From assembly GCA_947650365.1 (NCBI GenBank), contig CANTAL010000002.1, positions 2,115,501 to 2,179,500 on the forward strand: 64,000 nucleotides of DNA. The letters are read 5' to 3'. Under the pieces are notes generated by a model, which worked only from the letters and a program-made list of their open reading frames with translations, was not told where the DNA came from and ran no database searches. The position numbers were made by a program, and so were the translations under genes. Below are positions 11,770-61,203 of this stretch, one piece after another. Every line of letters begins with the position of its first letter. The stretch's first letter is position 1. Origin of the DNA: Chamaelirium japonicum. Its lineage: Eukaryota; Streptophyta; Magnoliopsida; Liliales; Melanthiaceae.

Positions 11770-12750
11770 CGAATGTATCCTTTCTAATTCATTCGTACCA
11801 TCCATTCTAATTCATTCGTACGATCCATTCTAATTCATTCGCACGATCCATTCTAATTCATTCGCACGATCCATTCTAATTCATTCATACAATCCATTCT
11901 AATTCTATTACACGAATGTATCCATTCTAATTCATTCGTATGATCCATTCTAATTCATTCGTACCATCCATTCTAATTCATTCACACTCATACGATCCAT
12001 TCTAATTCATTCGCACGAATGTATCCTTTCTAATTCATTCGTACGATCCATTCTAATTCATTCGCACAATCTATTCTAATTCATTCGAACGATCCATTCT
12101 AAGTCATTCGTACGATCCATTCTAATTCATTCGTACGATCCATTCTAATTCATTCGCACGATCCATTCTATTTCATTCGTACGATCCATTCTAATTCATT
12201 CGCACGAATGTATCCATTCCAATTCATTCGTACGATCCATTCTAATTCATTCGCACAATCTATTCTAATTCATTCGTACGATCAATTCTAATTCATTTGC
12301 ACATATCCATTCTAATTCATTCATAAGATCCATTCTATTTCATTCGTACGATCCATTCTTACTCATTCGTACGATCCATTCTAATTCATTCGTACGATCC
12401 ATTCTAATTCATTCGTACGATCCATTCTAATTCATTCGCACAATCTATACGTTCCATTCTAATTCATTCGTAAGATCCATTCTAATTCATTCGCACGATC
12501 CGAATGAATTAGAATGGATCGTACGATTGAATTAGAATGTATCGTATGAATGAATTAGAGTGGATCATATGAATGAATTAGAATGGATCGTATGAATGAA
12601 TTAGAATGGATCGTGCGAATGAATTAGAATGGATCGTGCGAATGAATTAGATTGGATCGTACGAACGAATTAGAATGGGACGTACGAATGAATTAGAATG
12701 GATACACGATCCAGATCCATTCTAATTCATTCGCACAATCTATTCTAATT
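11770..12750. repeat. Isolated relative of the 4.42-kb repeat's end and start
   Basis: The R block up to 12500 and the F block 12501-12708 reproduce the boundary region of the 4.42-kb repeat at 48780-49330. Shared landmarks are CCATTCCAATTC, ATCAATTCTAATTC, CGCACAATCTATACGTTCC (near 12437), the GATCCGAATG switch (12499) and GGATACACGATCCAGATCC (near 12700). The copy is more than 30 kb from the main set and is more diverged. Confidence 0.75.
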
Positions 12751-13707
12751 CATTCGTAGAATCCATTCTAATTCATTACTACGATCCATTCTAATTCATT
12801 CATACGATCCATTCTAATTCATTCGTACGATCCATTCTAATTCATTCGCATGATCCATTCTAATTCATTCATACGATCCATTCTAATTCCTTCGTACGAT
12901 CCATTCTAATTCCTTCGTACGATCCATTCTAATTCATACGTACGACCCATTCTAATTCATTCGTACGATCCATTCAAATTCATTTGCACGATCCATTCTA
13001 ATTCATTCGCATGATCCATTCTAATTCATTCATACGATCCATTCTAATTCATTCATATGATCCACTCTAATTCATTCATACGATCCATTCTAATTCATTC
13101 ATACGATCCATTCTAACTCATTCGTACGATCCACTCAAATACGAATAAATTAGAATGAATTAGAATGGATTGTGTGAATGAATTAGAATGGATCGTATGA
13201 ATGAATTAGAATGGATCGTGCGAATGAATTAGAATGGATCGTGCGATTGAATTAGAATATGGATCGTACGAAGGAATTAGAATGGATCGTACGAATGAAT
13301 TCGAATGTATCCTTTCTAATTCATTCGTACGATCCATTCTAATTCCTTCGTACGATCCATTCTAATTCATTCGTACGATTCATGCTAATGAATTAGAATT
13401 GATCGTACGAATGAATTAGAATAGATTGTGCGAATGAATTAGAATGGATCGTACGAATGAATTGGAATGGATACATTCGTGCGAATGAATTAGAATGGAT
13501 CGTATGAATGAATTAGAGTGGATACATTCGTACAAATGAATTAGAATGGATCGTACGAATGAATTAGAATGGATACATTCGTGCGAATGAATTAGAATGG
13601 ATCGTTTAAGTGAATGCGAATGGATCGTGCGAATGAATTAGAATGGATTGTACGAATGAATTAGAATGGATCGTACGAATGAATTAGAATGGATACATTC
13701 GTGCGAA

Positions 13708-33306: not shown

Positions 33307-34760
33307 CACGAATGTATCCATTCTAATTCATTCGAACGATCCATTCTAATTCATTCGTACAATCCATTCTAATTCATTCGCACGATACATTCGCATTCAC
33401 TCAAACGATCCATTCTAATTCCTTCATATGATCCATTCTAATTCATTCGCAGAATGTATCCATTCTAATTCATTCATACGATCCATTCTAATTCATTTGT
33501 ACGAATGTATCCACTCAAATTCATTCATACGATCCATTCTAATTCATTCGCACGAATATATCCATTCCAATTCATTCGTACGATCCATTCTAATTCATTC
33601 GCACAATCTATTCTAATTCATTCATACGATCCATCCTAATTCATTCGCACGAATGTATCCATTCTAATTCATTCGTACAATCCATTCTATTTCATTCGTA
33701 CGATCCATTCTTACTCATTCGTACGATCCTTTCGTATCCATTCTAATTCATTCGTACGATCTATTCTAATTCCTTCGTACGATCCATTCTAATTCCTTCG
33801 TATGATCCATTCTAATTCAATCCATTCTAATTCATTCGTACGATCCATTCTAATTCATTCGTATGATCTATTCTAATTCATTCGCATGATCCATTCTAAT
33901 TCCTTCGTACGATCCATTTTAATTCATTCGCACGATCCATTCTAATTCATTCATACGATCCATTCTAATTCATTCGTACGATCCATTCTAATTTCTTCGT
34001 ATGATCTATTCTAATTCCTTCGTACGATCCATTCTAATTCATTCATACGATCTATTCTAATTCTTTCGCACGAATGTATCCATTCTAATTCATTCGTACG
34101 ATCCATTCTAATTTTTTCGTACGATCCATATTCTAATTCATTCGTACGATCCATTCTAATTTATTCGTACAATCCATTCTAATTCATTCGCACGAATGTA
34201 TCCATTCTAATTCATTCGTACGATCCATTCTACGAATTAGAATGGATCGTATGAATGAATTAGAATAGATCGTGCGAATAAATTAGAATGGATCGTATGA
34301 ATGAATTAGAATAGATTGTGCGAATGAATTAGAATGGATCGTACGAATGAATTAGAATGGATACATTCGTGCGAATGAATTAGAATGGATCATACGAATG
34401 AATTAGAATGGATCATATGAATGAATTAGAATGGATCGTACGAATGAATTAGAATGGATACATTCATGCGAATGAATTAGAATGGATCATACGAATGAAT
34501 TAGAATGGATTCATTCGTGCGAATGAATTAGAATGGATCGTACGAATGAGTAAGAATGGATCGTACGAATGAATTAGAATGGATTGAATTAGAATGAAAC
34601 GTACGAATGAATTAGAATGGATCGTACGAATGAATTAGAATGGATCGTACGAATGAAATGGAATGGATCGTATAAATGAATTAGAATGGATCGTGCGAAT
34701 GAATTAGAATGGATCGTACGAATGAATTAGAATAGATTGTGCGAATGAATTAGAATGGAT
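33307..34760. repeat. Distant direct copy of the 59.8-60.9 kb segment
   Basis: R 33307-34232, then F. The switch string TACGAATTAG is at 34231 and 60348, an offset of 26117 bp. The first ATTCATGCG unit after the switch (34451 and 60567) keeps that offset to within a base. The match runs from about 33840 to 34760 against 59957 to 60880. The left parts differ by about 360 bp of extra R units here, since the preceding GATTCGCAC switches (33301 and 59778) are 26477 bp apart. Confidence 0.7.
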
Positions 34761-37718
34761 CGTGCTTATGAATTAGAATGGATCGTGCGAATAAATTAGA
34801 ATGGATCGTATGAATGAATTAGAATAGATTGTGCGAATGAATTAGAATGGATCGTACGAATGAATTAGAATGGATACATTCGTGCGAATGAATTAGAATG
34901 GATCGTATGAATGAATTAGAATTGATCGTACGAATCAATTAGAATGGATCATGCGAATGAATTAGAATGGATCGTGCGAATGAATTAGAATGGATCGTAC
35001 GAATGAAATAGAATGGATTGTACGAATGAGATAGAATGGATCGTACGAATGAATTAGAATGGATACATTCATGCGAATAAATTAGACTGGATCATACGAA
35101 TAAATTAGAATGGATTCATTCGTGCGAATGAATTAGAATGGATCGTATGAATGAGTAAGAATGGATCGTTAGAATGAATTAGAATGGATCGTATTAATGA
35201 ATTAGAATGGATCGTATAAATGAATTAGGATGGATCGTACGAAGGAATTAGAATGGATCGTACGAAGGAATTAGAATGGATAGTACGAATGAATTAGAAT
35301 GGATACCTTCATGCAAATGAATTAGAATGGATCGTACGAATGAGTAAGAATGGATCGTACGAATGAATTAGAATGGATTGAATTAGAATGAATTGTACGA
35401 ATGAATTAGAATGGATCGTACGAATGAATTAGAATGGATCGTACGAATGAATTAGAATGGATTGAATTAGAATGGATCGTACGATAAGAATGGATCGTAC
35501 AAATGAAATAGAATAGATCGTAGGGATAAATGAATTTGGATCGTGCTAATGAATTAGAATGGATCGTACGAATGAATTAGAATAGATCGTACTAATGAAT
35601 TAGAATAGATTGTGCGAATGAATTTGAATGGATCGTACGAATGAATTAGAAAGGATATATTCGTGCGAATGAATTAGAATAGATCGTATGAATGAATTAG
35701 ATTGGATCGTATTAATGAATTAGAATGGATCGTGCGAATGAATTAGAATGGATCGTACGAATGAAATAGAATAGATTGTACGAATGAGATAGAATGGATC
35801 GTACGAATGAATTAGAATGGATACATTCATGCGAATGAATTAGAATGGATCAAACGAATGAATTAGAATGGATTCATTCGTGCGAATGAATTAGAATGGA
35901 TCGCACGAATGAGTAAGAATGGATCGTACGAATGAATTAGAATGGATTGAATTAGAATGAATCGTACGAATGAATTAGAATGGATCGTACGAATGAATTA
36001 GAATGGATCGTATGAATGAATTAGAATGGATTGAATTAGAATGAATCGTACGAATGAATTAGAATGAATCATACCGTACGAATGAATTAGAAAGGATCAT
36101 ACGAAAGAATTAGAATGGATCGTACGAATGAATTAGAATGGATCGTATGAATGAATTAGAATGGATCGTACGAAGGAATTAGAATGGATCGTACAAAGGA
36201 ATTAGAATGGATAGTACGAATGAATTAGAATGGATACCTTCGTGCAAATGAATTAGAATGGATCGTACGAATGAGTAAGAAATGGATCGTACGAATGTCC
36301 ATTCTAATTCATTCGTACTATCCATTCTAATTCCTTCGTACGATCCATTCTAACTCATTTGCATGATCCATTCTAATTCATTTGCATGATCCATTCTAAT
36401 TCATTCGTACGATCGATTCTAATTCATTCATACGATCCATTCTAACTCATTCGCACGAATGTATCCATTCTTATTCATTCGTACGATCCATTCTAATTCA
36501 TTCGCACAATTTATTCTAATTCATTCATACGATCCATTCTAATTTATTCGCACGATCCATTCTAATTCATTCATACGATCCATTCTAATTCATTCATTTG
36601 ATCCATTCTAATTCATTCGCACGATCCATTCTTACTCATTCGTACGATCCATTCTAATTCATTCGCACGATCCATTCTAATTCATTAATACGATCCATTC
36701 TAATTCATTCGCACAATCCATTCTAATTCATTCACACTCATACGATCCATTCTAATTCATTAGCATGAATGTATCCTTTCTAATTCATTCGTACGATCCA
36801 TTCTAATTCATTCGCACAATCTATTCTAATTCATTCGAACGATCCATTCTAATTCATTCGTACGATCCATTCTAATTCATTCGTACGATCCATTCTAATT
36901 CATTCACGCGATCCATTCTAATTCATTCGCACGATCCATTCTAGTTCATTAGCACGATCCATTCTAATTCATTCGTACGATCTATTCTAATTCATTTATA
37001 CGATCCAATCTAATTCATTCATACGATCCATTCTAATTCTTTCGCACGAATGTATCCATTCTAATTCATTCGTACGATCCATTCTAATTCATTAGCACGA
37101 AAAAACACGATCCACTCACATACGAATAAATTAGAATGAATTAGAATGGATTGTGTGAATGAATTAGAATGGATTGTATGAACGAATTAGAATGGATCGT
37201 GCGAATGAATTAGAATATGGATCGTACGAAGGAATTAAAATGGATCGTACGAATGAATTCGAATGTATCCTTTCTAATTCATTCGTACGATCCATTCTAA
37301 TTCCTTCGTACGATCCATTCTAATTCATTCGTACGATCCATTTTAATTCATTCGCACGATCCATTCTAATTCATTCGTACGATCCATTCTATTTCATTCA
37401 TACGATCCATTCTAATTCATTCATACGATCTATTCTAATTCTTTCGCACGAATGTATCCATTCTAATTCATTCGTACGATCCATTCTAATTCATTCGCAC
37501 GATCCATTCTGATTCATTCATACAATCCATTCTAATTTTTTTGCACGAATGTATCCATTCTAATTCATTCGTTCGATCCATTCTAATTGATTCATACAAT
37601 CCATTCTAATTCATTCGCACGATCCACTCTAATTCATGCATACGATCCAATCTAATTCATTCATACGATCCATTCTAATTCATTCGCACGAATGTATCCA
37701 TTCTAATTCATTCGTACA
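34233..37718. repeat. Mixed satellite blocks
   Basis: F 34233-36296, R to 37119, F to 37260, R to 37718. The truncated ACGGATAAATGAATTTGG-type unit appears near 35521, with the first bases changed to AGGGATAAATG. The 37718 switch is centred on ACATGT, a palindrome not used elsewhere in the window. Confidence 0.85.
37096..37126 (+). repeat. A6-tract junction element, copy at 37.1 kb
   Basis: CACGAAAAAACACGATCC followed by ACTCACATACG, at an R to F switch at about 37119. It matches the 20070 copy. It lies outside the 3.6-kb repeat, so the element moves with smaller blocks too. Confidence 0.85.
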
Positions 37719-44670: not shown

Positions 44671-47600
44671 TCCGAATGAATTAGAATGGATCGTACGAAT
44701 GAATTAGAATGGATCGTATGAATGAATTAGAGTGGATCATATGAATGAATTAGAATGAATCGTATGAATGAATTAGAATGGATCGTGCGAATAAATTAGA
44801 ATGGATCGTGCGAATGAATTAGAATGGATCGTACGAATGAATTAGAATGGGTCGTACGAATGAATTAGAATGGATACACGATCCTGATCCATTCTAATTC
44901 ATTCGCACAATCTATTCTAATTCTTTTGTAGGATCGTGCGAATGAATTAGAATGGATCGTGCGAATGAGTTACAATGGATCGTACTAATGAATTAGAATG
45001 GATCGTACGAATGAATTAGAATGGATCGTACGAATGAATTAGAAAGGATACATTCGAATTCATTCGTACGATCCATTCTAATTCCTTCGTACGATCCATA
45101 TTCTAATTCATTCGCACGATCCATTCTAATTCATTCGTACGATTCATTCTAATTCAATCCATTCTAATTCATTCGTACGATCCATTCTAATTCATTCGTA
45201 CGATCCATTCTAATTCATTAGTACGATCCATTCTAATTAGAATAGATTGTATGAATTAGAATGGATCGTATGAATGAATTAGAATAGATCGTACGAATGA
45301 ATTAGAATGGATTGAATTAGAATGAATCGTACGAATGAATTAGAATGGATCGTGCGAATGAATTAGAATATGGATCGTACGAAGGAATTAGAATGGATCG
45401 TACGAATGAATTCGAATGTATCCTTTCTAAATCATTCGTACGATCCATTCTAATTCATTCGTACGATCCATTCTAATTCATTCGTACGATCCATTCTAAC
45501 TCATTCGCACGATCCATTCTAATTCATTCGCACGATCCTACGAATGAATTAGAATAGATTGTGCGAATGAATTAGAATGGATCTGGATCGGGTATCCATT
45601 CTAATTCATTCGTACGACCCATTCTAATTCATTCATACGATCCATTCTAATTCATTCGTACGATCCATTCTAATTCCTTCGTACGATCCATTCTAATTCC
45701 TTCGTACGATCCATTCTAATTCATTCATACGATCCATTCTAATTCCTTCGCACGATCCATTCTAATTCATTCGTACGATCCATTCTAATTCATTCATATG
45801 ATCCATTCTAATTCATTCGTATGATCCATTCTAATTCATTCGCACGAATGTATCCATTCTAATTCATTCGTACAATCCATTCTAATTCATTCGCACAATC
45901 TATTCTAATTCATTCATACGATCCATTCTAATTTATTCGCACGATCCATTCAAATTCATTCATACGATCCATTCTAATTCGTAGAATGGATCGTACGAAT
46001 GAATTAGAATGGATACATTCGTGCGAATGAATTAGAATGGATTGGACGAATAAATTAGAATGGATCGTACGAATGAATTAGAATATGGATCGTACGAAGG
46101 AATTAGAATGGATCGTACGAATGAATTAGAATGGATACATTCGTGCGAAAGAATTAGAATAGATCGTATGAATGAATTAGAATGGATCGTACGAAGGAAT
46201 TAGAATAGATCATACGAAGAAATTACAATGGATCGTACGAATGAATTAGAATGGATCGTATGAATGAATTAGAATGGATCGTGCGAATGAATTAAAATGG
46301 ATCGTACGAAGGAATTAGAATGGATCATGCGAATGAATTAGAATAGATCATACGAATGAATTAGAATGGATCATACGAATGAATTAGAATGGATACTTTC
46401 GTGCAAAAGAATTAGAATGGATTGTATGAATGAATTAGAATGGATCGTTTGAGTGAATGCGAATGGATCGTGCGAATGAATTAGAATGGATTGTACGAAT
46501 GAATTAGGATGGATCGTACGAATGAATTAGAATGGATACATTCGTGCGAATCCATTCTATTTCATTCGTACGATCCATTCTAATTCATTCGCACGATCCA
46601 TTCTAATTCATTCGTACGATCCATTCTAATTCATTCGTACGATCCATTCTAATTCATTCGTACGATCCATTCTAATTCATTCGCACTATCTATTCTAATT
46701 CATTCGAACGATCCATTCTAATTTATTCGTACGATCCATTCTAATTCATTCGTACGATCTATTCTATTTCATTCGTACAATCCATTCTTACTCAATCGTA
46801 TGATCCATTCTAATCCATTCGCACAATCTACTCTAATTCATTCGTACGATCCATTCTATTTCATTTGCACGAAGGTATCCATTCTAATTCATACAATCCA
46901 TTCTAATTCATTCATACGATCCAATCTAATTCATTCATACGATCCATTCTAATTCATTCGCACGAATGTATCCATTCTAATTCATACGTACGATCTATTC
47001 TAATTCATTCGTACGATCCATTCTAATTCATTCGCACAATCCATTCTAATTCATTTGCACGATTTCTAATTCATTCATACAATCCATTCTAATTCTTTTG
47101 CACGAATGTATCCATTCTAATTCATTACGAATGAGTAAGAATGGATTGTACGAATGAATTAGAATGGATACATTCGTGCGAATGAATTAGAATGGATCAT
47201 ACGAATGAATTAGAATGGATCGTACGAATGAATTAGAATGGATCGTACGAATGAATTAGAATGGATCGTACGAATGAATTAGAATGGATCGTACGAAGGA
47301 ATTAGAATGGATCGTACGAAGGAATTAGAATGGATCGTACGAATGAATTAGAATGGATCGTGCGAATGAATTAGAATGGATCGTACGAATGAATTAGAAT
47401 GGATCGTATGAATGAATTAGAATGGATCGTAGTAATGAAGTAGAATGGATCCTACGAATGAATTAGAATAGATTGTGCGAATGAATTAGAATGGATCTGG
47501 ATCGTGTATCCATTCTAATTCATTCGTACGACCCATTCTAGTTCGTTCGTATGATCCATTCTAATTCATTCGCACGATCCATTCTAATTCATTCGCACGA

Positions 47601-49090
47601 TCCATTCTAATTCATTCATACGATCCATTCTAATTCATTCATATGATCCACTCAAATTCATTCATACGATCCATTCTAATTCATTCGTACGATCCATTCT
47701 AATTCATTCGGATCATACGAATGAATTAGAATGGATCTTACGAATGAATTAGAATGGAACGTATAGATTGTGCGAATGAATTAGAATGGATCGTACGAAT
47801 GAATTATAATGGATCGTACGAATGAATTAGAATGGATCGTACGAATGAGTAAGAATGGATCGTACGAATGAAATAGAATGGATCGTATGAATGAATTAGA
47901 ATGGATACGTGCGAATGAATTAGAATTGATCGTACGAATGAATTATAATAGATTGTGCGAATGAATTAGAATGGATCGTACGAATGAATTGGAATGGATA
48001 CATTCGTGCGAATGAATTAGAATGGATCGTACGAATGAAATAGAATGGATCATTTGAGTGAATTAGAATAGATTGTGCGAATGAATTAGAATGGATCGTA
48101 CGAATGAATTAGAATGGATCGTGCGAATAAATTAGAATGGATCGTATGAATGAATTAGAATGGATCGTGCGAATGAATTAGAATATAGATCGTATGAATG
48201 AATTAGAATAGATTGTGCGAATGAATTAGAATAGATCGTATGAATGAATTAGAATGGATCGTACGATCTATTCTAATTCATTCATGCAATCCATTCTAAT
48301 TCATTCGTACGAAGGAATTAGAAAGGATCGTACGAATGAATTAGAATGGATCGTACGAAGGAATTAGAAAGGATACATTCGAATTCATTCGTACGATCTA
48401 TTCTAATTCATTCGTACGATCTATATTCTAATTCATTCGCACGATCCATTCTAATTCATTCGTACGATCCATTCTAAGTCATTCGCACGATCCAATCTAA
48501 TTCATTCGCACGATACATTCTAATTCATTCATACAATCCATTCTAATTCTTTTGCACGAATGTATCCATTCTAATTCATTCGTACGATCCATTCTAATTC
48601 ATTCGTACGATCCATTCAAATTCATTCGCACGAATGTATCCGTTTTAATTCATTCGTACGATCCATTCTAATTCATTCGCACAATCTATTCTAATTCATT
48701 CGAACGATCCATTCTAAGTCATTCGTACGATCCATTCTAATTCATTCGTACGATCCATTCTAATTCATTCACACGATCCATTCTATTTCATTCGTACGAT
48801 CCATTCTAATTCATTCGCATGAATGTATCCATTCCAATTTATTCGTACGATCCATTCTAATTCATTCGCACAATCTATTCTAATTCATTCGTACGATCAA
48901 TTCTAATTCATTCGCACGTATCCATTCTAATTCATTCATACGATCCATTCTATTTCATTCGTACGATCCATTCTTACTCATTCGTACGATCCATTCTAAT
49001 TCATTCGTACGATCCATTCTAATTCATTCACACAATCTATACGTTCCATTCTAATTCATTTGTAAGATCCATTCTAATTCATTCGCACGA
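44671..49090. repeat. 4.42-kb higher-order repeat, copy 1
   Basis: Sixteen blocks: F to 44884, R 44930, F 45057, R 45236, F 45412, R 45538, F 45586, R 45981, F 46551, R 47125, F 47502, R 47711, F 48262, R 48308, F 48380, R 49090. The start landmark TCCGAATGAA is at 44671, with the next at 49091 (4420 bp). It lacks a CACACTCAT unit near 48610 that copies 2 and 3 have, and has a damaged unit near 47050 (CACGATTTCTAATTC). Confidence 0.9.
44835..45635. repeat. 0.8-kb near-perfect palindrome, copy 1 (centre 45236)
   Basis: The arms mirror each other around TTCTAATTAGAA. Mirrored pairs share the same midpoint: GGGTCG 44849 with CGACCC ending 45620; the GGATACACGATCC and GGATC(C/G)GGTATCC-class switches 44884 and 45586; GTAGGATCGTGC 44930 with GCACGATCCTAC 45538; GGATACATTCGAATTC 45057 with GAATTCGAATGTATCC 45412. 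The arms include five orientation switches and a matching compound 38-bp unit. A few substitutions and a 3-4 bp length difference near the centre separate the arms. Confidence 0.85.
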
Positions 49091-49350
49091 TCCGAATGAA
49101 TTAGAATGGATCTTACGAAAGAATTAGAATGGATCGTATGAATGAATTAGAGTGGATCATATGAATGAATTAGAATGGATCGTATGAATAAATTAGAATG
49201 GATCGTGCGAATGAATTAGAATGGATCGTGCGAATGAATTAGAATGGATCGTACGAATGAATTAGAATGGGTCTTACGAATGAATTAGAATGGATACACG
49301 ATCCAGATCCATTATAATTCATTCGCACAATCTATTCTAATTCATTCGTA
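47455..49350. repeat. 1.9-kb imperfect palindrome spanning the copy 1/2 boundary
   Basis: The reverse complement of 47455-48060 matches 48780-49350. Mirrored switches 47502 with 49302 and 47711 with 49092 share the midpoint 48402. The ATACGTTCC unit, GAGTAAG unit, GAAATAG unit, GATACGTGC unit and GAATTGATCG unit appear in mirror order. The inner about 500 bp are only partly mirrored and centre on about 48305, so one arm has gained or lost units. Confidence 0.75.
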
Positions 49351-50055
49351 GGATCGTGCGAATGAATTAGAATGGATCGTGCGAATGAGTTAGAATGGAT
49401 CGTACGAATGAATTAGAATGGATCGTACGAATGAATTAGAATGGATTGTACGAATGAATTAGAAAGGATACATTCGAATTCATTCGTACGATCCATTCTA
49501 ATTCCTTCGTACGATCCATATTCTAATTCATTCGCACGATCCATTCTAATTCATTCGTACGATTCATTCAAATTCAATCCATTCTAATTCATTCGTACGA
49601 TCCATTCTAATTCATTCGTACGATCCATTCTAATTCATTAGTACGATCCATTCTAATTAGAATAGATTGTATGAATTAGAATAGATCGTATGAATGAATT
49701 AGAATAGATCGTACGAATGAATTAGAATGGATTGAATTAGAGTGAATCGTACGAATGATTTAGAATGGATCGTGCGAATGAATTAGAATATGGATCGTAC
49801 GAAGGAATTAGAATGGATCGTACGAATGAATTCGAATGTATCCTTTCTAATTCATTCGTACGATCCATTCTAATTCATTCGTACGATCCATTCTAATTCA
49901 TTTGTACAATCCATTCTAACTCATTCGCACGATCCATTCTAATTCATTCGCACGATCCTACGAATGAATTAGAATAGATTGTGCGAATGAATTAGAATGG
50001 ATCTGGATCGTGTATCCATTCTAATTCATTCGTACGACCCATTCTAATTCATTCA
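49255..50055. repeat. 0.8-kb palindrome, copy 2 (centre 49656)
   Basis: Same palindrome as at 45236, 4420 bp away. Mirrored switches: 49302 with 50005, 49352 with 49958, 49477 with 49832. Both arms share GAAGGAATTAG and the GAATATGGATCG unit in mirror order. Confidence 0.85.
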
Positions 50056-52129
50056 TACGATCCATTCTAATTCGGTCGTACGATCCATTCTAATTCCTTC
50101 GTACGATCCATTTTAATTCCTTCGTACGATCCATTCTAATTCATTCATACGATCCATTCTAATTCCTTCGCACGATCCATTCTAATTCATTCGTACGATC
50201 CATTCTAATTCATTCATATGATCCATTCTAATTCATTCGTATGATCCATTCTAATTCATTCGCATGAATGTATCCATTCTAATTCATTCGTACGATCCAT
50301 TCTAATTCATTCGCACAATCTATTCTAATTCATTCATACGATCCATTCTAATTTATTTGCACGATCCATTCTAATTCATTCATACGATCCATTCTAATTC
50401 GTAGAATGGATCGTACGAATGAATTAGAATGGATACATTCGTGCGAATGAATTAGAATGGATTATACGAATAAATTAGAATGGATCGTACGAATGAATTA
50501 GAATATGGATCGTACGAAGGAATTAGAATGGATCGTACGAATGAATTAGAATGGATACATTCGTGCGAAAGAATTAGAATAGATCGTATGAATGAATTAG
50601 AATGGATCGTACGAAGGAATTAGAATAGATCATACGAAGAAATTAGAATGGATCGTACGAATGAATTAGAATGGATCGTATGAATGAATTAGAATGGATC
50701 GTGCGAATGAATTAAAATGGATCGTACGAAGGAATTAGAATGGATCATGCGAATGAATTAGAATAGATCATACGAATGAATTAGAATGGATCATATGAAT
50801 GAATTAGAATGGATACTTTCGTGCAAAAGAATTAGAATGGATTGTATGAATGAATTAGAATGCACCGTTTGAGTGAATGCGAATGGATCGTGCGAATGAA
50901 TTAGAATGGATTGTACGAATGAATTAGAATGGATCGTACGAATGTATTAGAATGGATACATTCGTGCGAATCCATTCTATTTCATTCGTACGATCCATTC
51001 TAAATCATTCGCACGATCCATTCTAATTCATTCGTACGATCCATTCTAAGTCATTCATACGATCCATTCTAATTCATTCGTACGATCCATTCTAATTCTT
51101 TCGCACAATCTATTCTAATTCATTCGAAAGATCCATTCTAATTCATTCGTACGATCCATTCTAATTCATTTGTACGATCTATTCTATTTCATTCGTACAA
51201 TCCATTCTTACTCAATCGTATGATCCATTCTAATCCATTTGCACAATCTACTCTAATTCATTCGTACGATCCATTCTATTTCATTTGCACGAAGGTATCC
51301 ATTCTAATTCATACAATCCATTCTAACTCATTCATACGATCCAATCTAATTCATTCATACAATCCATTCTAATTCATTCGCACGAATGTAACCATTCTAA
51401 TTCATACGTACGATCTATTCTAATTCATTCGTACGATCCATTCTAATTCATTCGCACAATCCATTCTAATTCATTTGCACGATCCATTCTAATTCATTCA
51501 TACAATCCATTCTAATTCTTTTGCACGAATGTATCCATTCTAATTCATTACGAATGAGTAAGAATGGATTGTACGAATGAATTAGAATGGATACACTCGT
51601 GCGAATGAATTTGAATGGATCGTACGAATGAATTATAATGGATCGTACGAAGGAATTAGAATGGATTGTACGAAGGAATTAGAATGGATCGTACGAAGGA
51701 ATTAGAATGGATCGTATGAATGAATTAGAATGGATCGTGCAAATGAATTAGAATGGATCGTACGAATGAATTAGAATGGATCGTATGAATGAATTAGAAT
51801 GGATCGTAGTAATGAATTAGAATGGATCCTACGAATGAATTAGAATAGATTGTGCGAATGAATTAGAATGGATCAGGATCGTGTATCCATTCTAATTCAT
51901 TCGTACGACCCATTCTAATTCATTCGTACGATCCATTCTAATTCATTCGCACGATCCATTCTAATTCATTCGCACGATCCATTCTAATTCATTCATACGA
52001 TCCATTCTAATTCATTCATATGATCCACTCTAATTCATTCATACGATCCATTCTAATTCATTCGTACGATCCATTCTAATTCATTCGGATCGTGCGAATG
52101 AATTAGAATGGATCTTACGAATGAATTAG

Positions 52130-52750
52130 AATGGAACGTATAGATTGTGCGAATGAATTAGAATGGATCGTACGAATGAATTAGAATGGATCGTATGAAT
52201 GAATTAGAATGGATCGTACAAATGAGTAAGAATGGATCATACGAATGAAATAGAATGGATCGTATGAATGAATTAGAATGGATACGTGCGAATGAATTAG
52301 AATTGATCGTACGAATGAATTGGAATAGATTGTGCGAATGAATTAGAATGGATAGTACGAATGAATTGGAATGGATACATTCGTGCGAATGAATTAGAAT
52401 GGATCGTACGAATGAAATAGAATGGATCGTTTGAGTGAATTAGAGTAGATTGTGCGAATGAATTAGAATGGATCGTACGAATGAATTAGAATGGATCGTA
52501 CGAATGAATTAGAATGGATCGTACGAATGAGTAAGAATGGATCGTACGAATGAAATAGAATGGATCGTATGAATGAATTAGAATGGATACGTGCGAATGA
52601 ATTAGAATTGATCGTACGAATGAATTATAATAGATTGTGCGAAAGAATTAGAATGGATCGTACGAATGAATTGGAATGGATACATTCGTGCGAATGAATT
52701 AGAATGGATCGTACGAATGAAATAGAATGGATCGTTTGAGTGAATTAGAA
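52130..52750 (+). repeat. 305-bp tandem duplication inside copy 2
   Basis: GATACGTGCGAATG is at 52281 and 52586, and TTGAGTGAATTAGA at 52431 and 52736, both 305 bp apart. Copies 1 and 3 of the 4.42-kb repeat have this segment once, so the duplication arose after copy 2 split from them. Confidence 0.85.
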
Positions 52751-53330
52751 TAGATTGTGCGAATGAATTAGAATGGATCGTACGAATGAATTAGAATGGA
52801 CCGTGCGAATAAATTAGAATGGATCGTATGAATAAATTAGAATGGATCGTGCGAATGAATTAGAATATAGATCGTATGAATGAATTAGAATAGATTGTGC
52901 GAATGAATTAGAATAGATCGTATGAATGAATTAGAATGGATCGTACGATCTATTCTAATTCATTCATGCAATCCATTCTAATTCATTCGTACGAAGGAAT
53001 TAGAAAGGATCGTACGAATGAATTAGAATGGATCGTACGAAGGAATTAGAAAGGATACATTCGAATTCATTCGTACGATCCATTCTAATTCATTCGTACG
53101 ATCTATATTCTAATTCATTCGCACGATCCATTCTAATTCATTCGTACGATCCATTCTAAGTCATTCGCACGATCCAATCTAATTCATTCGCACGATCCAT
53201 TCTAATTCATTCATACAATCCATTCTAATTCTTTTGCACGAATGTATCCATTCTAATTCATTCGTACGATCCATTCTAATTCATTCGTACGATCCATTCT
53301 AATTCATTCGCACAATCCATTCTAATTCAT

Positions 53331-54290
53331 TCACACTCATACGATCCATTCAAATTCATTCGCACGAATGTATCCGTTTTAATTCATTCGTACGATCCAT
53401 TCTAATTCATTCGCACAATCTATTCTAATTCATTCGAACGATCCATTCTAAGTCATTCGTACGATCCATTCTAATTCATTCATACGATCCATTCTAATTC
53501 ATTCACACGATCCATTCTATTTCATTCGTACGATCCATTCTAATTCATTCGCATGAATGTATCCATTCTAATTTATTCGTATGATCCATTCTAATTCATT
53601 CGCACAATCTATTCTAATTCATTCGTACGATCAATTCTAATTCATTCGCACGTATCCATTCTAATTCATTCATACGATCCATTCTATTTCATTCGTATGA
53701 TCCATTCTTACTCATTCGTACGATCCATTCGAATTCATTCGTACGATCCATTCTAATTCATTCGTACGATCCATTCTAATTCATTCGCACAATCCATTCT
53801 AATTCATTCACACTCATACGATCCATTCAAATTCATTCGCACGAATGTATCCGTTTTAATTCATTCGTACGATCCATTCTAATTCATTCGCATAATCTAT
53901 TCTAATTCATTCGAACGATCCATTCTAAGTCATTCGTACGATCCATTCTAATTCATTCATACGATCCATTCTAATTCATTCACACGATCCATTCTATTTC
54001 ATTCGTACGATCCATTCTAATTCATTCGCATGAATGTATCCATTCCAATTTATTCGTATGATCCATTCTAATTCATTCGCACAATCTATTCTAATTCATT
54101 CGTACGATCAATTCTAATTCATTCGCACGTATCCATTCTAATTCATTCATACGATCCATTCTATTTCATTCGTATGATCCATTCTTACTCATTCGTACGA
54201 TCCATTCGAATTCATTCGTACGATCCATTCTAATTCATTCGTACGATCCATTCTAATTCATTCGCACAATCTATACGTTCCATTCTAATT
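53331..54290 (-). repeat. 477-bp tandem duplication inside copy 2
   Basis: TCACACTCAT is at 53331 and 53808 (477 bp). Both halves repeat CATTCAAATTC, GTATCCGTTTTAATTC, ATTCGAACG, ATTCTAAGTC, CGCACGTATCC and CCATTCGAATTC in order. Copies 1 and 3 carry this segment once. The two halves differ by only a few bases, for example CGCACAATC against CGCATAATC and TATCCATTCTAATTT against TATCCATTCCAATTT. Confidence 0.85.
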
Positions 54291-54324
54291 CATTTGTAAG
54301 ATCCATTCTAATTCATTCGCACGA

Positions 54325-57300
54325 TCCGAATGAATTAGAATGGATCTTACGAATGAATTAGAATGGATCGTATGAATGAATTAGAGTGGATCATATGAAT
54401 GAATTAGAATGGATCGTATGAATGAATTAGAATGGATCGTGCGAATGAATTAGAATGGATCGTGCGAATGAATTAGAATGGATCGTACGAATGAATTAGA
54501 ATGGGTCGTACGAATGAATTAGAATGGATACACGATCCAGATCCATTATAATTCATTCGCACAATCTATTCTAATTCATTCGTAGGATCGTGCGAATGAA
54601 TTAGAATGGATCGTGCGAATGAGTTAGAATGGATCGTATGAATGAATTAGAATGGATCGTACGAATGAATTAGAATGGATCGTACGAATGAATTAGAAAG
54701 GATATATTCGAATTCATTCGTATGATCCATTCTAATTCCTTCGTACGATCCATATTCTAATTCATTCGCACGATCCATTCTAATTCATTCGTACGATTCA
54801 TTCAAATTCAATCCATTCTAATTCATTCGTACGATCCATTCTAATTCATTCGTACGATCCATTCTAATTCATTAGTACGATCCATTCTAATTAGAATAGA
54901 TTGTATGAATTAGAATAGATCGTATAAATGAATTAAAATAGATCGTACGAATGAATTAGAATGGATTGAATTAGAGTGAATCGTACGAATGATTTAGAAT
55001 GGATCGTGCGAATGAATTAGAATATGGATCGTACAAAGGAATTAGAATGGATCGTATGAATGAATTCGAATGTATCCTTTCTAATTCATTCGTACGATCC
55101 ATTCTAATACATTCGTACGATCCATTTAATTCATTCGTACGATCCATTCTAACTCATTCGCACGATCCATTCTAATTCATTCGCACGATCCTACGAATGA
55201 ATTAGAATAGATTGTGCGAATGAATTAGAATGGATCTGGATCGTGTATCCATTCTAATTCATTCATACGACCCATTCTAATTCATTCATACGATCCATTC
55301 TAATTCGGTCGTACGATCCATTCTAATTCCTTCGTACGATCCATTCTAATTCCTTCGTACGATCCATTCTAATTCATTCATACGATCCATTCTAATTCCT
55401 TCGCACGATCCATTCTAATTCATTCGTACGATCCATTCTAATTCATTCATATGATCCATTCTAATTCATTCGTATGATCCATTCTAATTCATTCGCACGA
55501 ATGTATCCATTCTAATTCATTCGTACGATCCATTCTAATTCATTCGCACAATCTATTCTAATTCATTCATACGATCCATTCTAATTTATTTGCACGATCC
55601 ATTCTAATTCATTCATACGATCCATTCTAATTCGTAGAATGGATCGTACGAATGAATTAGAATGGATACATTCGTGCGAATGAATTAGAATGGATTGTAC
55701 GAATAAATTAGAATGGATCGTACGAATGAATTAGAATATGGATCGTACGAAGGAATTAGAATGGATCGTACGAATGAATTAGAATGGATACATTCGTGCG
55801 AAAGAATTAGAATAGATCGTATGAATGAATTAGAATGGATCGTACGAAGGAATTAGAATAGATCATACGAAGAAATTAGAATGGATCGTACGAATGAATT
55901 AGAATGGATCGTATGAATGAATTAGAATGGATCGTGCGAATGAATTAAAATGGATCGTACGAAGGAATTAGAATGGATCATGCGAATGAATTAGAATAGA
56001 TCATACGAATGAATTAGAATGGATCATATGAATGAATTAGAATGGATACTTTCGTGCAAAAGAATTAGAATGGATTGTATGAATGAATTAGAATGCACCG
56101 TTTGAGTGAATGTGAATGGATCGTGCGAATGAATTAGAATGGATTGTACGACTGAATTAGAATGGATCGTACGAATGAATTAGAATGGATACATTCGTGC
56201 GAATCCATTCTATTTCATTCGTACGATCCATTCTAATTCATTCGCACGATCCATTCTAATTCATTCGTACGATCCATTCTAATTCATTCATACGATCCAT
56301 TCTAATTCATTCGTGCGATCCATTCTAATTCATTCGCACAATCTATTCTAATTCATTTGAAAGATCCATTCTAATTCATTCGTACGATCCATTCTAATTC
56401 ATTCGTACGATCTATTCTATTTCATTCGTACAATCCATTCTTACTCAATCGTATGATCCATTCTAATCCATTCGCACAATCTACTCTAATTCATTCGTAC
56501 GATCCATTCTATTTCATTTGCACGAAGGTATCCATTCTAATTCATACAATCTATTCTAATTCATTCATACGATCCAATCTAATTCATTCATACAATCCAT
56601 TCTAATTCATTCGCACGAATGTAACCATTCTAATTCATACGTACGATCTATTCTAATTCATTCGTACGATCCATTCTAATTCATTCGCACAATCCATTCT
56701 AATTCATTTGCACGATCCATTCTAATTCATTCATACAATCCATTCTAATTCTTTTGCACGAATGTATCCATTCTAATTCATTACGAATGAGTAAGAATGG
56801 ATTGTACGAATGAATTAGAATGGATACATTCGTGCGAATGAATTAGAATGGATCGTACGAATGAATTAGAATGGATCGTATGAAGGAATTAGAATGGATC
56901 GTACGAAGGAATTAGAATGGATCGTACGAAGGAATTAGAATGGATCGTATGAATGAATTAGAATGGATCGTGCGAATGAATTAGAATGGATCGTACGAAT
57001 GAATTAGAATGGATCGTATGAATGAATTAGAATGGATTGTAGTAATGAATTAGAATGGATCCTACGAATGAATTAGAATTGATTGTGCGAATGAATTAGA
57101 ATGGATCTGGATCGTGTATCCATTCTAATTCATTCGTACGACCCATTCTAATTCATTCGTACGATCCATTCTAATTCATTCTCACGATCCATTCTAATTC
57201 ATTCGCACGATCCATTCTAATTCATTCATACGATCCATTCTAATTGATTCATATGATCCACTCTAATTCATTCATACGATCCATTCTAATTCATTCGTAC

Positions 57301-58752
57301 GATCCATTCTAATTCATTCGGATCGTGCGAATGAATTAGAATGGATCTTACGAATGAATTAGAATGGAACGTATAGATTGTGCGAATTAATTAGAATGGA
57401 TCGTACGAATGAATTAGATTGGATCGTACGAATGAATTAGAATGGATCGTACGAATGAGTAAGAATGGATCATACGAATGAAATAGAATGGATCGTATGA
57501 ATGAATTAGAATGGATACGTGCGAATGAATTAGAATTGATCGTACGAATGAATTAGAATAGATTGTGCGAATGAATTAGAATGGATCGTACGAATGAATT
57601 GGAATGGATACATTCGTGCGAATGAATTAGAATGGATCGTATGAATGAAATAGAATGGATCGTTTGAGTGAATTAGAATAGATTGTGCGAATGAATTAGA
57701 ATGGATCGTACGAATGAATTAGAATGGATCGTGCGAATAAATTAGAATGGATCGTATGAATGAATTAGAATGGATCGTGCGAATGAATTAGAATATAGAT
57801 CGTACGAATGGATTAGAATAGATTGTGCGAATGAATTAGAATGGATCGTATGAATGAATTAGAATGGATCGTACGATCTATTCTAATTCATTCATGCAAT
57901 CCATTCTAATTCATTCGTACGAAGGAATTACAAAGGATCGTATGAATGAATTAGAATGGATCGTACGAAGGAATTAGAAAGGATACATTCGAATTTATTC
58001 GTACGATCCATTCTAATTCATTCGTACGATCTATATTCTAATTCATTCGCACGATCCATTCTAATTCATTCGTACGATCCATTCAAATTCATTCGCACGA
58101 TCCATTCTAATTCATTCGCACGATCCATTCTAATTCATTCATACAATCCATTCTAATTCTTTTGCACGAATGTATCCATTCTAATTCATTCGTACGATCC
58201 ATTATAATTCATTCGTACGATCCATTCTAATTCATTCGCACAATCCATTCTAATTCATTCACACTCATACGATCCATTCTAATTCACTCGAACGAATGTA
58301 TCCGTTTTAATTCATTCGTACGATCCATTCTAATTCATTCGCACAATCTATTCTAATTCATTCGAACGATCCATTCTAAGTCATTCGTACGATCCATTCT
58401 AATTCATTCGTACGATCCATTCTAATTCATTCACACGATCCATTCTATTTCATTCGTACGATCCATTCTAATTCATTCGCACGAATGTATCCATTCCAAT
58501 TCATTCGTACGATCCATTCTAATTCATTTGCACAATCTATTCTAATTCATTCGTACGATCAATTCTAATTCATTCGCACGTATCCATTCTAATTCATTCA
58601 TACGATCCATTCTATTTCATTCGTACGATCCATTCTTACTCATTCGTACGATCCATTCTAATTCATTCGTACGATCCATTCTAATTCATTCGCACAATCT
58701 ATACGTTCCATTCTAATTCATTCGTAAGATCCATTCGAATTCATTCGCACGA
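54325..58752. repeat. 4.42-kb higher-order repeat, copy 3
   Basis: Start landmark at 54325, the next at 58753 (4428 bp). The same sixteen blocks: switches near 54536, 54585, 54711, 54890, 55067, 55191, 55239, 55634, 56203, 56783, 57112, 57321, 57872, 57918, 57990 and 58752. It shares the GTTTGAGTGAATG unit preceded by GAATGCACC with copy 2, which groups copies 2 and 3 as closer to each other than to copy 1. Confidence 0.9.
54488..55290. repeat. 0.8-kb palindrome, copy 3 (centre 54890)
   Basis: Mirrored switches: 54536 with 55239, 54585 with 55191, 54711 with 55067. Copy-specific changes such as GGATATATTCG on the left arm (the right arm keeps GTATCC) show that the arms vary independently, which a read fold-back would not give. 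Confidence 0.85.
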
Positions 58753-59010
58753 TCCGAATGAATTAGAATGGATCGTACGAATGAATTAGAATGGATCGTA
58801 TGAATGAATTAGAGTGGATCATATGAATGAATTAGAATGGATTGTATGAATGAATTAGAATGGATCGTGCGAATGAATTAGAATGGATCGTGCGAATGAA
58901 TTAGAATGGATCGTACGAATGAATTAGAATGGGTCGTACGAATGAATTAGAATGGATACACGATCTAGATCCATTCTAATTCATTCGCACAATCTATTCT
59001 AATTCATTCG
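58753..59010. repeat. 4.42-kb repeat, truncated copy 4
   Basis: The first about 255 bp match the starts of copies 1-3: the TCCGAATGAA switch, GAGTGGATCATATG, GAATGGGTCG, then GGATACACGATCTAGATCC. At GTAGGATC near 59009 the sequence leaves the direct repeat, where copies 1-3 continue GTGCGAATG, and follows the inverted 4.42-kb sequence (CATTCTAATTCATTACTACG). Confidence 0.8.
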
Positions 59011-60460
59011 TAGGATCCATTCTAATTCATTACTACGATCCATTCTAATTCATTCATACGATCCATTCTAATTCATTCGTACGATCCATTCTAATTCATT
59101 CGCACGATCCATTCTAATTCATTCGTACGATCCATTCTAATTCCTTGGTACTATCCATTCTAATTCCTTCGTACGATCTATTCTAATTCATTCGTACGAT
59201 CCATTCTAATTCATTCGCACGAATGTATCTATTCTAATTCATTCGTACAATCCATTCTTACTCATTCGTAATGAATTAGAATGGATACATTCGTGCAAAA
59301 GAATTAGAATGGATTGTATAAATGAATTAGAATGGATCGTACAAATGAATTAGAATGGATTGTGCGAATGAATTAGAATGGATCGTACGAATGAACTAGT
59401 ATAGATCGTACGTATGAATTAGAATGGATACATTCGTGCGAATGAATTAGAATGGATCGTATGAATGAATTAGATTGGATCGTATGAATGAATTAAAATG
59501 GATTGTATGAATTAGAATGGATACCTTCGTGCAAATGAAATAGAATGGATCGTACGAATGAATTAGAGTAGATTGTGCGAATGGATTAGAATGGATCATA
59601 TGATTGAGTAAGAATGGATTGTACGAATGAAATAGAATAGATCGTACGAATGAATTAGAATGGATCGTATGAATGAATTAGAATGGATCGTTCGAATGAA
59701 TTAGAATAGATTGTGCGAATGAATTAGAATGGATCGTGCGAATGAATTAGAATGGATCGTACGAATGAAATAGAATGGATTCGCACTAATGTATCCATTC
59801 TAATTCATTCGTACGATCCATTCTAATTCATTCATACAATCCATTCTAATTCATTCGCACGATCCATTCGCATTCACTCAAACGATCCATTCTAATTCAT
59901 TCATACAATCCATTCAAATTCTTTTGCACGAATGTATCCATTCTAATTCATTCGTACGATCCATTCTAATTCATTCGTATGATCTATTCTAATTTATTCG
60001 CATGATCCATTCTTATTCCTTCGTACGATCTATTTTAATTCATTCGCACGATCCAATCTAATTCATTCATACGATCCAGTCTAATTCATTCGTACAATCC
60101 ATTCTAATTTCTTCGTATGATCTATTCTAATTCCTTCGTACGATCCATTCTAATTCATTCATACGATCTATTCTAATTCTTTCGCCCGAATGTATCCATT
60201 CTAATTCATTCGTACGATCCATTCTAATTCCTTCGTACTATCCATATTCTAATTCATTCGTATGATCCATTCTAATTTATTCGTACAATCCATTCTAATT
60301 CATTCGCACGAATGTATCCATTCTAATTCATTTGTACGATCCATTCTACGAATTAGAATGGAACGTATGAATGAATTATCATGGATCGTGCGAATAAATT
60401 AGAATGGATCGTATGAATGAATTAGAATAGATTGTGCGAATGAATTAGAATGGATCGTAC

Positions 60461-60488
60461 GAATGAATTAGAATGGATACATTCGTGC
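60461..60488 (+). repeat. Exemplar of the 28-bp unit variant (ATACATTCGTGC spacer)
   Basis: A second unit length class, 28 bp, has the spacer ATACATTCGTGC in place of ATCGTAC. It is scattered through the window in both orientations (R form GCACGAATGTATCC). Related 28-bp forms carry ATACCTTCGTGC (for example near 5003, 5825 and 6198). The 5-bp length change sets the register of the higher-order repeats and marks equivalent positions in different copies. Confidence 0.9.
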
Positions 60489-60682
60489 GAATGAATTAGA
60501 ATGGATCATACGAATGAATTAGAATGGATCATATGAATGAATTAGAATGGATTGTACGAATGAATTAGAATGGATACATTCATGCGAATGAATTAGAATG
60601 GATCATACGAATGAATTAGAATGGATTCATTCGTGCGAATGAATTAGAATGGATCGTACGAATGAGTAAGAATAGATCGTAC

Positions 60683-60720
60683 GAATGAATTAGAATGGAT
60701 TGAATTAGAATGAATCGTAC
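60683..60720 (+). repeat. Exemplar of the 38-bp compound unit (spacer lost between two cores)
   Basis: This 38-bp form joins two cores without the CGTACGAAT spacer: AATGGATTGAATTAGAATG, then AATCGTAC. It recurs many times, usually right after a GAGTAAG unit, for example near 1131, 3561, 26771, 35369, 38190, 40233 and 62609, and in R form near 18020, 21530 and 25240. It reads as an internal deletion between two units that was then spread by amplification of larger blocks. Confidence 0.85.
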
Positions 60721-61203
60721 GAATGAATTAAAATGGATCGTACGAATGAATTAGAATGGATCGTACGAATGAAATAGAATGGATTGTATGAATGAATTAG
60801 AATGGATCGTGCGAATGAATTAGAATGGATCGTACGAATGAATTAGAATAGATTGTGCAAATGAATTAGAATGGATCGTGCGAATGAATTAGAATGGATC
60901 GTACGAATGAATTAGAATAGATTGTGCGAATGAATTAGAATGGATCGTACGAATGAATTAGAATGGATCGTACGAATGAATTAGAATGGATACATTCGTA
61001 CGAATGAAATAGAATGGATTGTACGAATGAGATAGAATGGATCGTGCGAATGAATTAGAATAGATTGTACGAATGAATTAGAATGGATTCATTCTAATTC
61101 ATTCGTACGATCCATTCTATCTCATTCGTACAATCCATTCTATCTCATTCGCACAATCTATTCTAATTCATTCATACGATCCATTCTAATTTATTCGCAT
61201 GAT

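Follow-up and report, generated by a model that had tools for sequence, protein, structure and literature searches.

The window analysed here, a stretch of 64,000 nucleotides (C14:2115501-2179500) from a 1.52-Gb assembly, carries a satellite with a unit of 23 bp, ATCCATTCTAATTCATTCGTACG, in which a two-state model distinguishes 116 segments by orientation. The satellite continues on both sides of the window across 264 kb, interrupted once, over about 13.5 kb, by two higher-GC inserts with satellite between the pair. With the inserts left out, these 264 kb hold 521 orientation segments with a mean length of 478 bp and a median of 316 bp, so that the strand of the satellite switches roughly every 0.5 kb. 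In 4-kb samples taken at eight points of the unplaced contig, the 23-bp unit was detected at 1.70, 1.90, 2.45, 2.70 and 3.27 Mb, and in the first part only of the sample at 3.00 Mb, and was absent from those at 0.50 and 1.20 Mb; its presence in six of the eight samples, from 1.70 to 3.27 Mb, shows that it extends, although interrupted, over at least 1.57 Mb. No match to any of six 18-base strings taken from the unit was found in the literature searched. The two inserts (C14 about 2198000-2201500 and 2205600-2211500; L012-L014) have a higher GC content than the array, and Pfam, queried with three frames from a nearby insert, retrieved nothing above the curated cut-off. In the second insert, a pair of almost identical frames of 206 aa is separated by about 4.75 kb, an arrangement that long terminal repeats would produce; this insert also has a coding-like tandem repeat (L013:8646-9143).

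At 55-61 kb of the window, the satellite forms a large palindrome. Local alignment of positions 54900-58000 with the reverse complement of 58000-61100 defined a left arm on the forward strand (55408..57793) and a right arm mirroring it on the reverse strand (58305..60575), which are about 97.0% identical, with 67 mismatches in 2271 ungapped columns. A sequence-only reading of the window had described these arms as mirrored and as old enough to have diverged, and both points are confirmed by the alignment, in which we also found the difference that it quoted near 60235 (CGTACTATCC against CGTACGATCC). The core of the alignment consists of four long blocks of 839, 547, 497 and 388 bp, 95-98% identical, and its gaps of 69, 23 and 23 bp correspond to three, one and one whole units, every one of them present in the left arm and absent from the right one. 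Beyond the arms (55247-55407 and 60581-60761) similarity falls to about 88-91%, with small gaps, and is lower farther out. An independent ungapped repeat finder also recovered overlapping pieces of both arms.

As a null, we aligned 600 random opposite-strand pairs with arm-matched lengths, taken from 181 kb of the array. These pairs showed a mean identity of 82.5% and a mean score of 962 (s.d. 215), versus 97.05% and 2072 for the palindrome, so that its arms lie above the maxima of the 600 pairs (94.3% and 1576) and are, as the earlier reading supposed, more alike than random blocks in opposite orientation. The palindrome is real and far beyond chance and, as discussed below, is for the most part explained. 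Mapping of the switch calls through the arm alignment identified five mirrored orientation switches per arm, instead of the four claimed initially. Those of the left arm, at 55627, 56184, 56776, 57109 and 57314, project onto positions 60356, 59799, 59276, 58966 and 58761 of the right arm, where switches were called at 60342, 59774, 59264, 58951 and 58741; the offset of 12-25 bp is within the resolution of the switch caller.

The palindrome had been given a centre at about 58.0 kb, around which the arms are indeed mirrored, but the central 511 bp (57794..58304) are asymmetric and include further switches at about 57869, 57915 and 57973. The structure is, therefore, not a perfect palindrome but an inverted repeat whose arms flank a spacer of about 0.5 kb. 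Pairing within these 511 bp stays below arm level, and a split-point scan, even with cheap long gaps, found no unique centre. A zero-spacer centre at 57914/57915, proposed by eye from a shared ATATA variant, was not preferred by the alignment. Judging from sequence, the asymmetry would argue, if mildly, against easy extrusion of a cruciform.

The location of the palindrome within a higher-order satellite, also noted in the first reading, was borne out, because the left arm and the centre repeat in a unit of 4.4-5.2 kb. Forward-strand copies of the left arm occur in the first unit (45755..48183), as two overlapping pieces (45755-47451, 97.4%, and 47179-48183, 96.9%), and in the second (50175..52560, 98.3%), giving left-arm spacings of 4420 and 5233 bp; their identity of 97-98% compares with about 82% for random pairs, all of which joined opposite strands. 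Copies of the centre, at 97-99%, are found at 48184 (448 of the 511 bp), at 52866 and within the downstream duplicate described below. The inner right arm is also represented on the forward strand of both units, by R1 (48643..49355, 98.2% identical to the right arm) and R2 (53880..54589, 2.0% from the right arm in a multiple alignment), and each of the three higher-order units contains a small self-palindrome of about 1.1 kb (44674-45795, 49094-50215 and 54328..55448), with arms of about 560 bp that are 5-6% diverged in the one unit tested. The outer right arm, past about 59.0 kb, has no direct match in the earlier higher-order units and thus, within this repeat, the full palindrome exists in the last unit only; pieces of this outer arm recur directly at 33.6 and 81.5 kb, with 92-94% identity. 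A dispersed relative of the inner arm block, on the reverse strand at 12028..13031, differs by 2.0% from the right arm and by 4.1% from the left one. Blocks of the arms recur tens of kb off with about 94-96% identity (33820-34972 and 59936-61088; 11936-13031), some in the orientation of the left arm and some in the opposite one. Tandem repeat finder also reported a 477-bp unit, repeated 2.5 times at 95%, at 53078-54271, inside the second higher-order copy.

Eleven direct matches of at least 2.5 kb and 93-99% identity link the region from -100 to -46 kb, relative to the window, with that from 101 to 163 kb, which predicted a second palindrome downstream that was then found. The whole palindrome repeats 209 kb downstream with 99.2-99.3% identity in BLAST comparisons, with the left arm at 264501-266878 (99.2%), the right arm at 267390-269660 (99.3%), a centre that is 99.2% identical, and three left-arm copies of its own. 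A 2.5-kb probe from the interval in between matched with a 212.2-kb offset (98.2% identity across 1389 bp), and the long match surrounding the palindrome stops near 61.56 kb. The direct segmental duplication pairs C14 about 2015501-2069600 and 2160600-2177060 with 2216900-2278200 and 2370000-2386150, at an offset of 201-212 kb and mostly 96-99% identity, and would exceed 160 kb if continuous. A third copy of the block, sought one period upstream (C14:1950001-1980000), was discarded: the longest match of at least 93% identity spans 1.4 kb and has a different offset.

The 55-61 kb palindrome is one among several in the 264 kb, as deduced from a BLAST search for inverted pairs of at least 93% identity and 400 bp. 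In window-relative positions, further pairs are found, among others, at -53305/-49826 (arms of 1465 bp, spacer of 550 bp), -43513/-35542 (3.1 kb, spacer of 1.8 kb), -27005/-24065 (1354 bp, spacer of 254 bp), -24699/-22140 (1.1 kb, spacer of 372 bp) and 155250/158729 (1465 bp, spacer of 550 bp), the first and the last being copies of one another.

The second copy allowed us to evaluate gene conversion between the arms, which the sequence-only reading had considered, by comparing the arms of the window copy (LA and RA) with those of the copy 209 kb away (LB and RB). Orthologous arms differ by 0.50% (LA-LB) and 0.66% (RA-RB), and the two arms of each copy by 2.95% (LA-RA) and 3.45% (LB-RB); arms are thus not more alike within a copy than between orthologues, as those of a gene-converting palindrome would be. 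The informative columns comprised 60 arm-specific, no copy-specific and no crossed sites, with 25 private ones, which speaks against conversion, and the gaps of 69, 23 and 23 bp are common to RA and RB. A wider alignment including the higher-order copies yielded 61 arm-specific and 27 private columns. Same-arm copies could be compared for 18 of these 27 private changes, and 17 of the 18 were absent from them, the pattern expected of new mutations; nine right-arm private changes had no same-arm copy for comparison, and polarising private changes with an outside block leaves room for a change on the branch of the arm itself. In two further palindromes the counts were 23 arm-specific sites versus one copy-specific and 27 versus none. 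The 60 arm-specific differences include 35 transitions, and at 26 of them one arm contains CG. Together, the 60:0:0 distribution and the 17 of 18 private changes indicate that arm-to-arm conversion is not detectable since the 209-kb duplication, conversion of a single site being indistinguishable from mutation.

A tree of the inner 0.7 kb agrees with this pattern: A/B orthologues pair in six of six cases (support 0.86-1.00), the six left copies group together (0.98), as do the right copies R1-R3 (0.75), and in none of the six palindromes does the left arm pair with its own right arm. R0, a right-like block ahead of the first unit (44.2-44.9 kb), falls outside the right group, 6-7% away. Between units, inner parts differ by 3.2-4.5% (left-right), 2.2-3.1% (left-left) and 1.0-2.8% (right-right). 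Since left-right distances exceed those within arms, and the divergence of the arms is about five times that between copies A and B, it seems that the palindrome arose first, the tandem units next, and the 209-kb duplication last.

Some results run contrary to the absence of detectable conversion. Besides the single copy-specific site in another palindrome (23:1), copy A has three right-arm-only changes in a row, at arm positions 1415, 1489 and 1516, which could mark a tract converted in copy B; no run of a single kind between arm-specific sites that survive is longer. Against this, copy B retains a 23-bp gap inside the run, and at the two sites of the run that the 12-kb block covers, this block carries the majority base. 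At site 864, a gap-edge column and the eighteenth of the comparable private changes, the higher-order copies carry the LA base and not the LB base, for which a new change in LB is the simplest account, and the site depends on gap placement because it lies within the 69-bp stretch given as missing from the right arm.

To characterise the junctions, the mirror axis of each of the 521 switches was calculated modulo 23 using the flanking phases. Three axes of the unit coincide with a perfect dyad that is 4 bp or longer (TCGTACGA, GATC and AATT), for an expectation of 3/23, and switches on them amounted to 175 of the 521, to 79 of 186 when near-identical junctions were collapsed (binomial p about 4e-23), and to 39 of 118 by distinct class of direction, axis and gap (p about 2e-8), p values that are overstated because the 4-bp rule was set after seeing the histogram and because junctions share descent. 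As the junctions are related by descent, these counts are of switches and not of independent events. The enrichment in the collapsed set comes mainly from C>G switches (59 of 117); it is weaker among the 69 of the G>C direction, of which 20 lie on the three axes. Axis 10, the most frequent G>C class (124 of 261), is off any dyad axis of the unit, and a small hairpin inside its junction, ATTCGCACGAAT, would be consistent with two small successive fold-backs. The 20-base motif GGATACATTCGTGCGAATCC, or its reverse complement, occurs exactly at 91 of the 124 axis-10 G>C switches and with up to one mismatch at 119 of them, as in those at 56184 and 59774 of the window. Junctions at self-complementary sequence are enriched across all switches; the palindrome's own centre is asymmetric.

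The excess of switches at the three dyads of the unit favours an inverted duplication by hairpin or template switching, and fold-back or template switching is supported indirectly, by the switch axes, as the source of the strand switches. We consider it probable that the palindrome results from one such event followed by passive amplification. A block of at least 2.3 kb, already containing the five strand switches, would have undergone a single inverted duplication, in a satellite where events of this type have been frequent. A short dyad (TCGTACGA, GATC or AATT) would have allowed a nascent or resected strand to prime again, on itself or on the strand opposite, either as a hairpin-primed fold-back or by a switch of template from one strand to the other. 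The structure would later have been carried passively as the satellite underwent ordinary tandem and segmental duplication, in the order deduced above, while point mutations and gains or losses of whole units drove the arms apart, and no function would be required. Some observations do not fit well: the axis-10 class of G>C switches is off the dyads, there is no clean fold-back point at the centre of the palindrome, and the inner right arm is 2.0% from the 12-kb block and 3.2% from the left arm. The last of these, together with the position of R0 outside the right group, indicates that blocks also move by other routes.

That proximity to the 12-kb block is also what recombination between oppositely oriented satellite stretches, by inversion of a tandem copy or by reverse insertion, would account for, as it would for the related blocks in both orientations at 12, 33 and 82 kb and for an opposite-strand homology that extends throughout the array. 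Yet the switch axes prefer micro-dyads, which are unneeded if long stretches recombine, and head-to-head arms only about 0.5 kb apart would be unexpected from random reverse insertion; we thus regard this origin as rather unlikely. Less likely still, on sequence grounds, would be a functional element, a cruciform or macro-dyad involved in the organisation of centromere or heterochromatin and kept by selection or arm conversion. Several palindromes do occur within 264 kb, and the authors of PMC13081366 propose a role of this kind for those of Tribolium. However, the arms drift apart with no detectable conversion, whole units are missing on one side only, and the centre is asymmetric. Finally, satellite assembly is prone to error and the palindrome is read here in assembled sequence, but a fold-back chimeric read or a false duplication is very improbable, because fold-back artefacts yield near-identical arms and these differ at 67 of 2271 sites, because the copy 209 kb away repeats these three gaps and the 60 differences that are arm-specific, while having private changes of its own, and because false duplication of a larger block alone would leave the palindrome unexplained.

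Beyond the inverted duplication and its passive amplification, we tentatively suggest that the unit might bear its own strand-switch seeds (TCGTACGA, GATC and AATT), so that the array keeps writing inverted duplications and palindromes, copied as blocks through tandem and 200-kb duplication, become its currency of amplification. If true, this would explain a megabase array that is a nested patchwork of mirrored blocks. More generally, the switch axes tie the strand switching of a satellite to short dyads in the repeat unit, a link that is testable in other short-unit satellites.

The kind of structure is already known, since kilobase palindromes of satellite DNA are published for Tribolium (PMC13081366). 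That text describes for TmSat1 and TmSat2 of Tribolium madens megabase satellite regions with orientation-switching arrays, kilobase palindrome-like structures, and recurrent and conserved sequences at the inversion sites. Shared with those macro-dyads are the tandem satellite that reverses orientation, the kilobase palindrome-like arms and the recurrent inversion-site sequence (axis 10, 119 of 124; 521 junctions in 118 classes). The Tribolium repeats described there are of 225 and 704 bp, predominantly with two subarrays per array, whereas here the unit is of 23 bp and switches every 0.5 kb or so, each arm has five mirrored switches, and a higher-order repeat includes the left arm and the centre. 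Ape sex-chromosome ampliconic palindromes, characterised as gene-converting in PMC11168930, are also long spacer-bearing inverted repeats; in contrast, no conversion was detectable here over the tested interval. Fold-back inversions in yeast, according to PMC7467729, involve hairpin stems down to 4 bp, with two cases fitting sequential hairpins; there too, short self-complementary sequences mark the junctions, on occasion two in succession. Those are, however, new chromosome rearrangements selected in the laboratory, and only old array junctions are seen here. No plant precedent for satellite palindromes appeared in the literature searched, mostly at listing level. Compared with Tribolium, the distinctive points here are how short the unit is, how densely it switches, the five mirrored switches per arm, and two copies through which arm conversion can be measured: with a satellite palindrome twice in one contig, this natural experiment lets arm conversion be counted and not assumed. 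Higher-order repeats of centromeric satellites consist of a multi-kilobase unit of diverged monomers in tandem. The array resembles them in its tandem multi-kilobase unit, here 97-98% identical, and differs from them in its palindromic parts and in the use of both strands.
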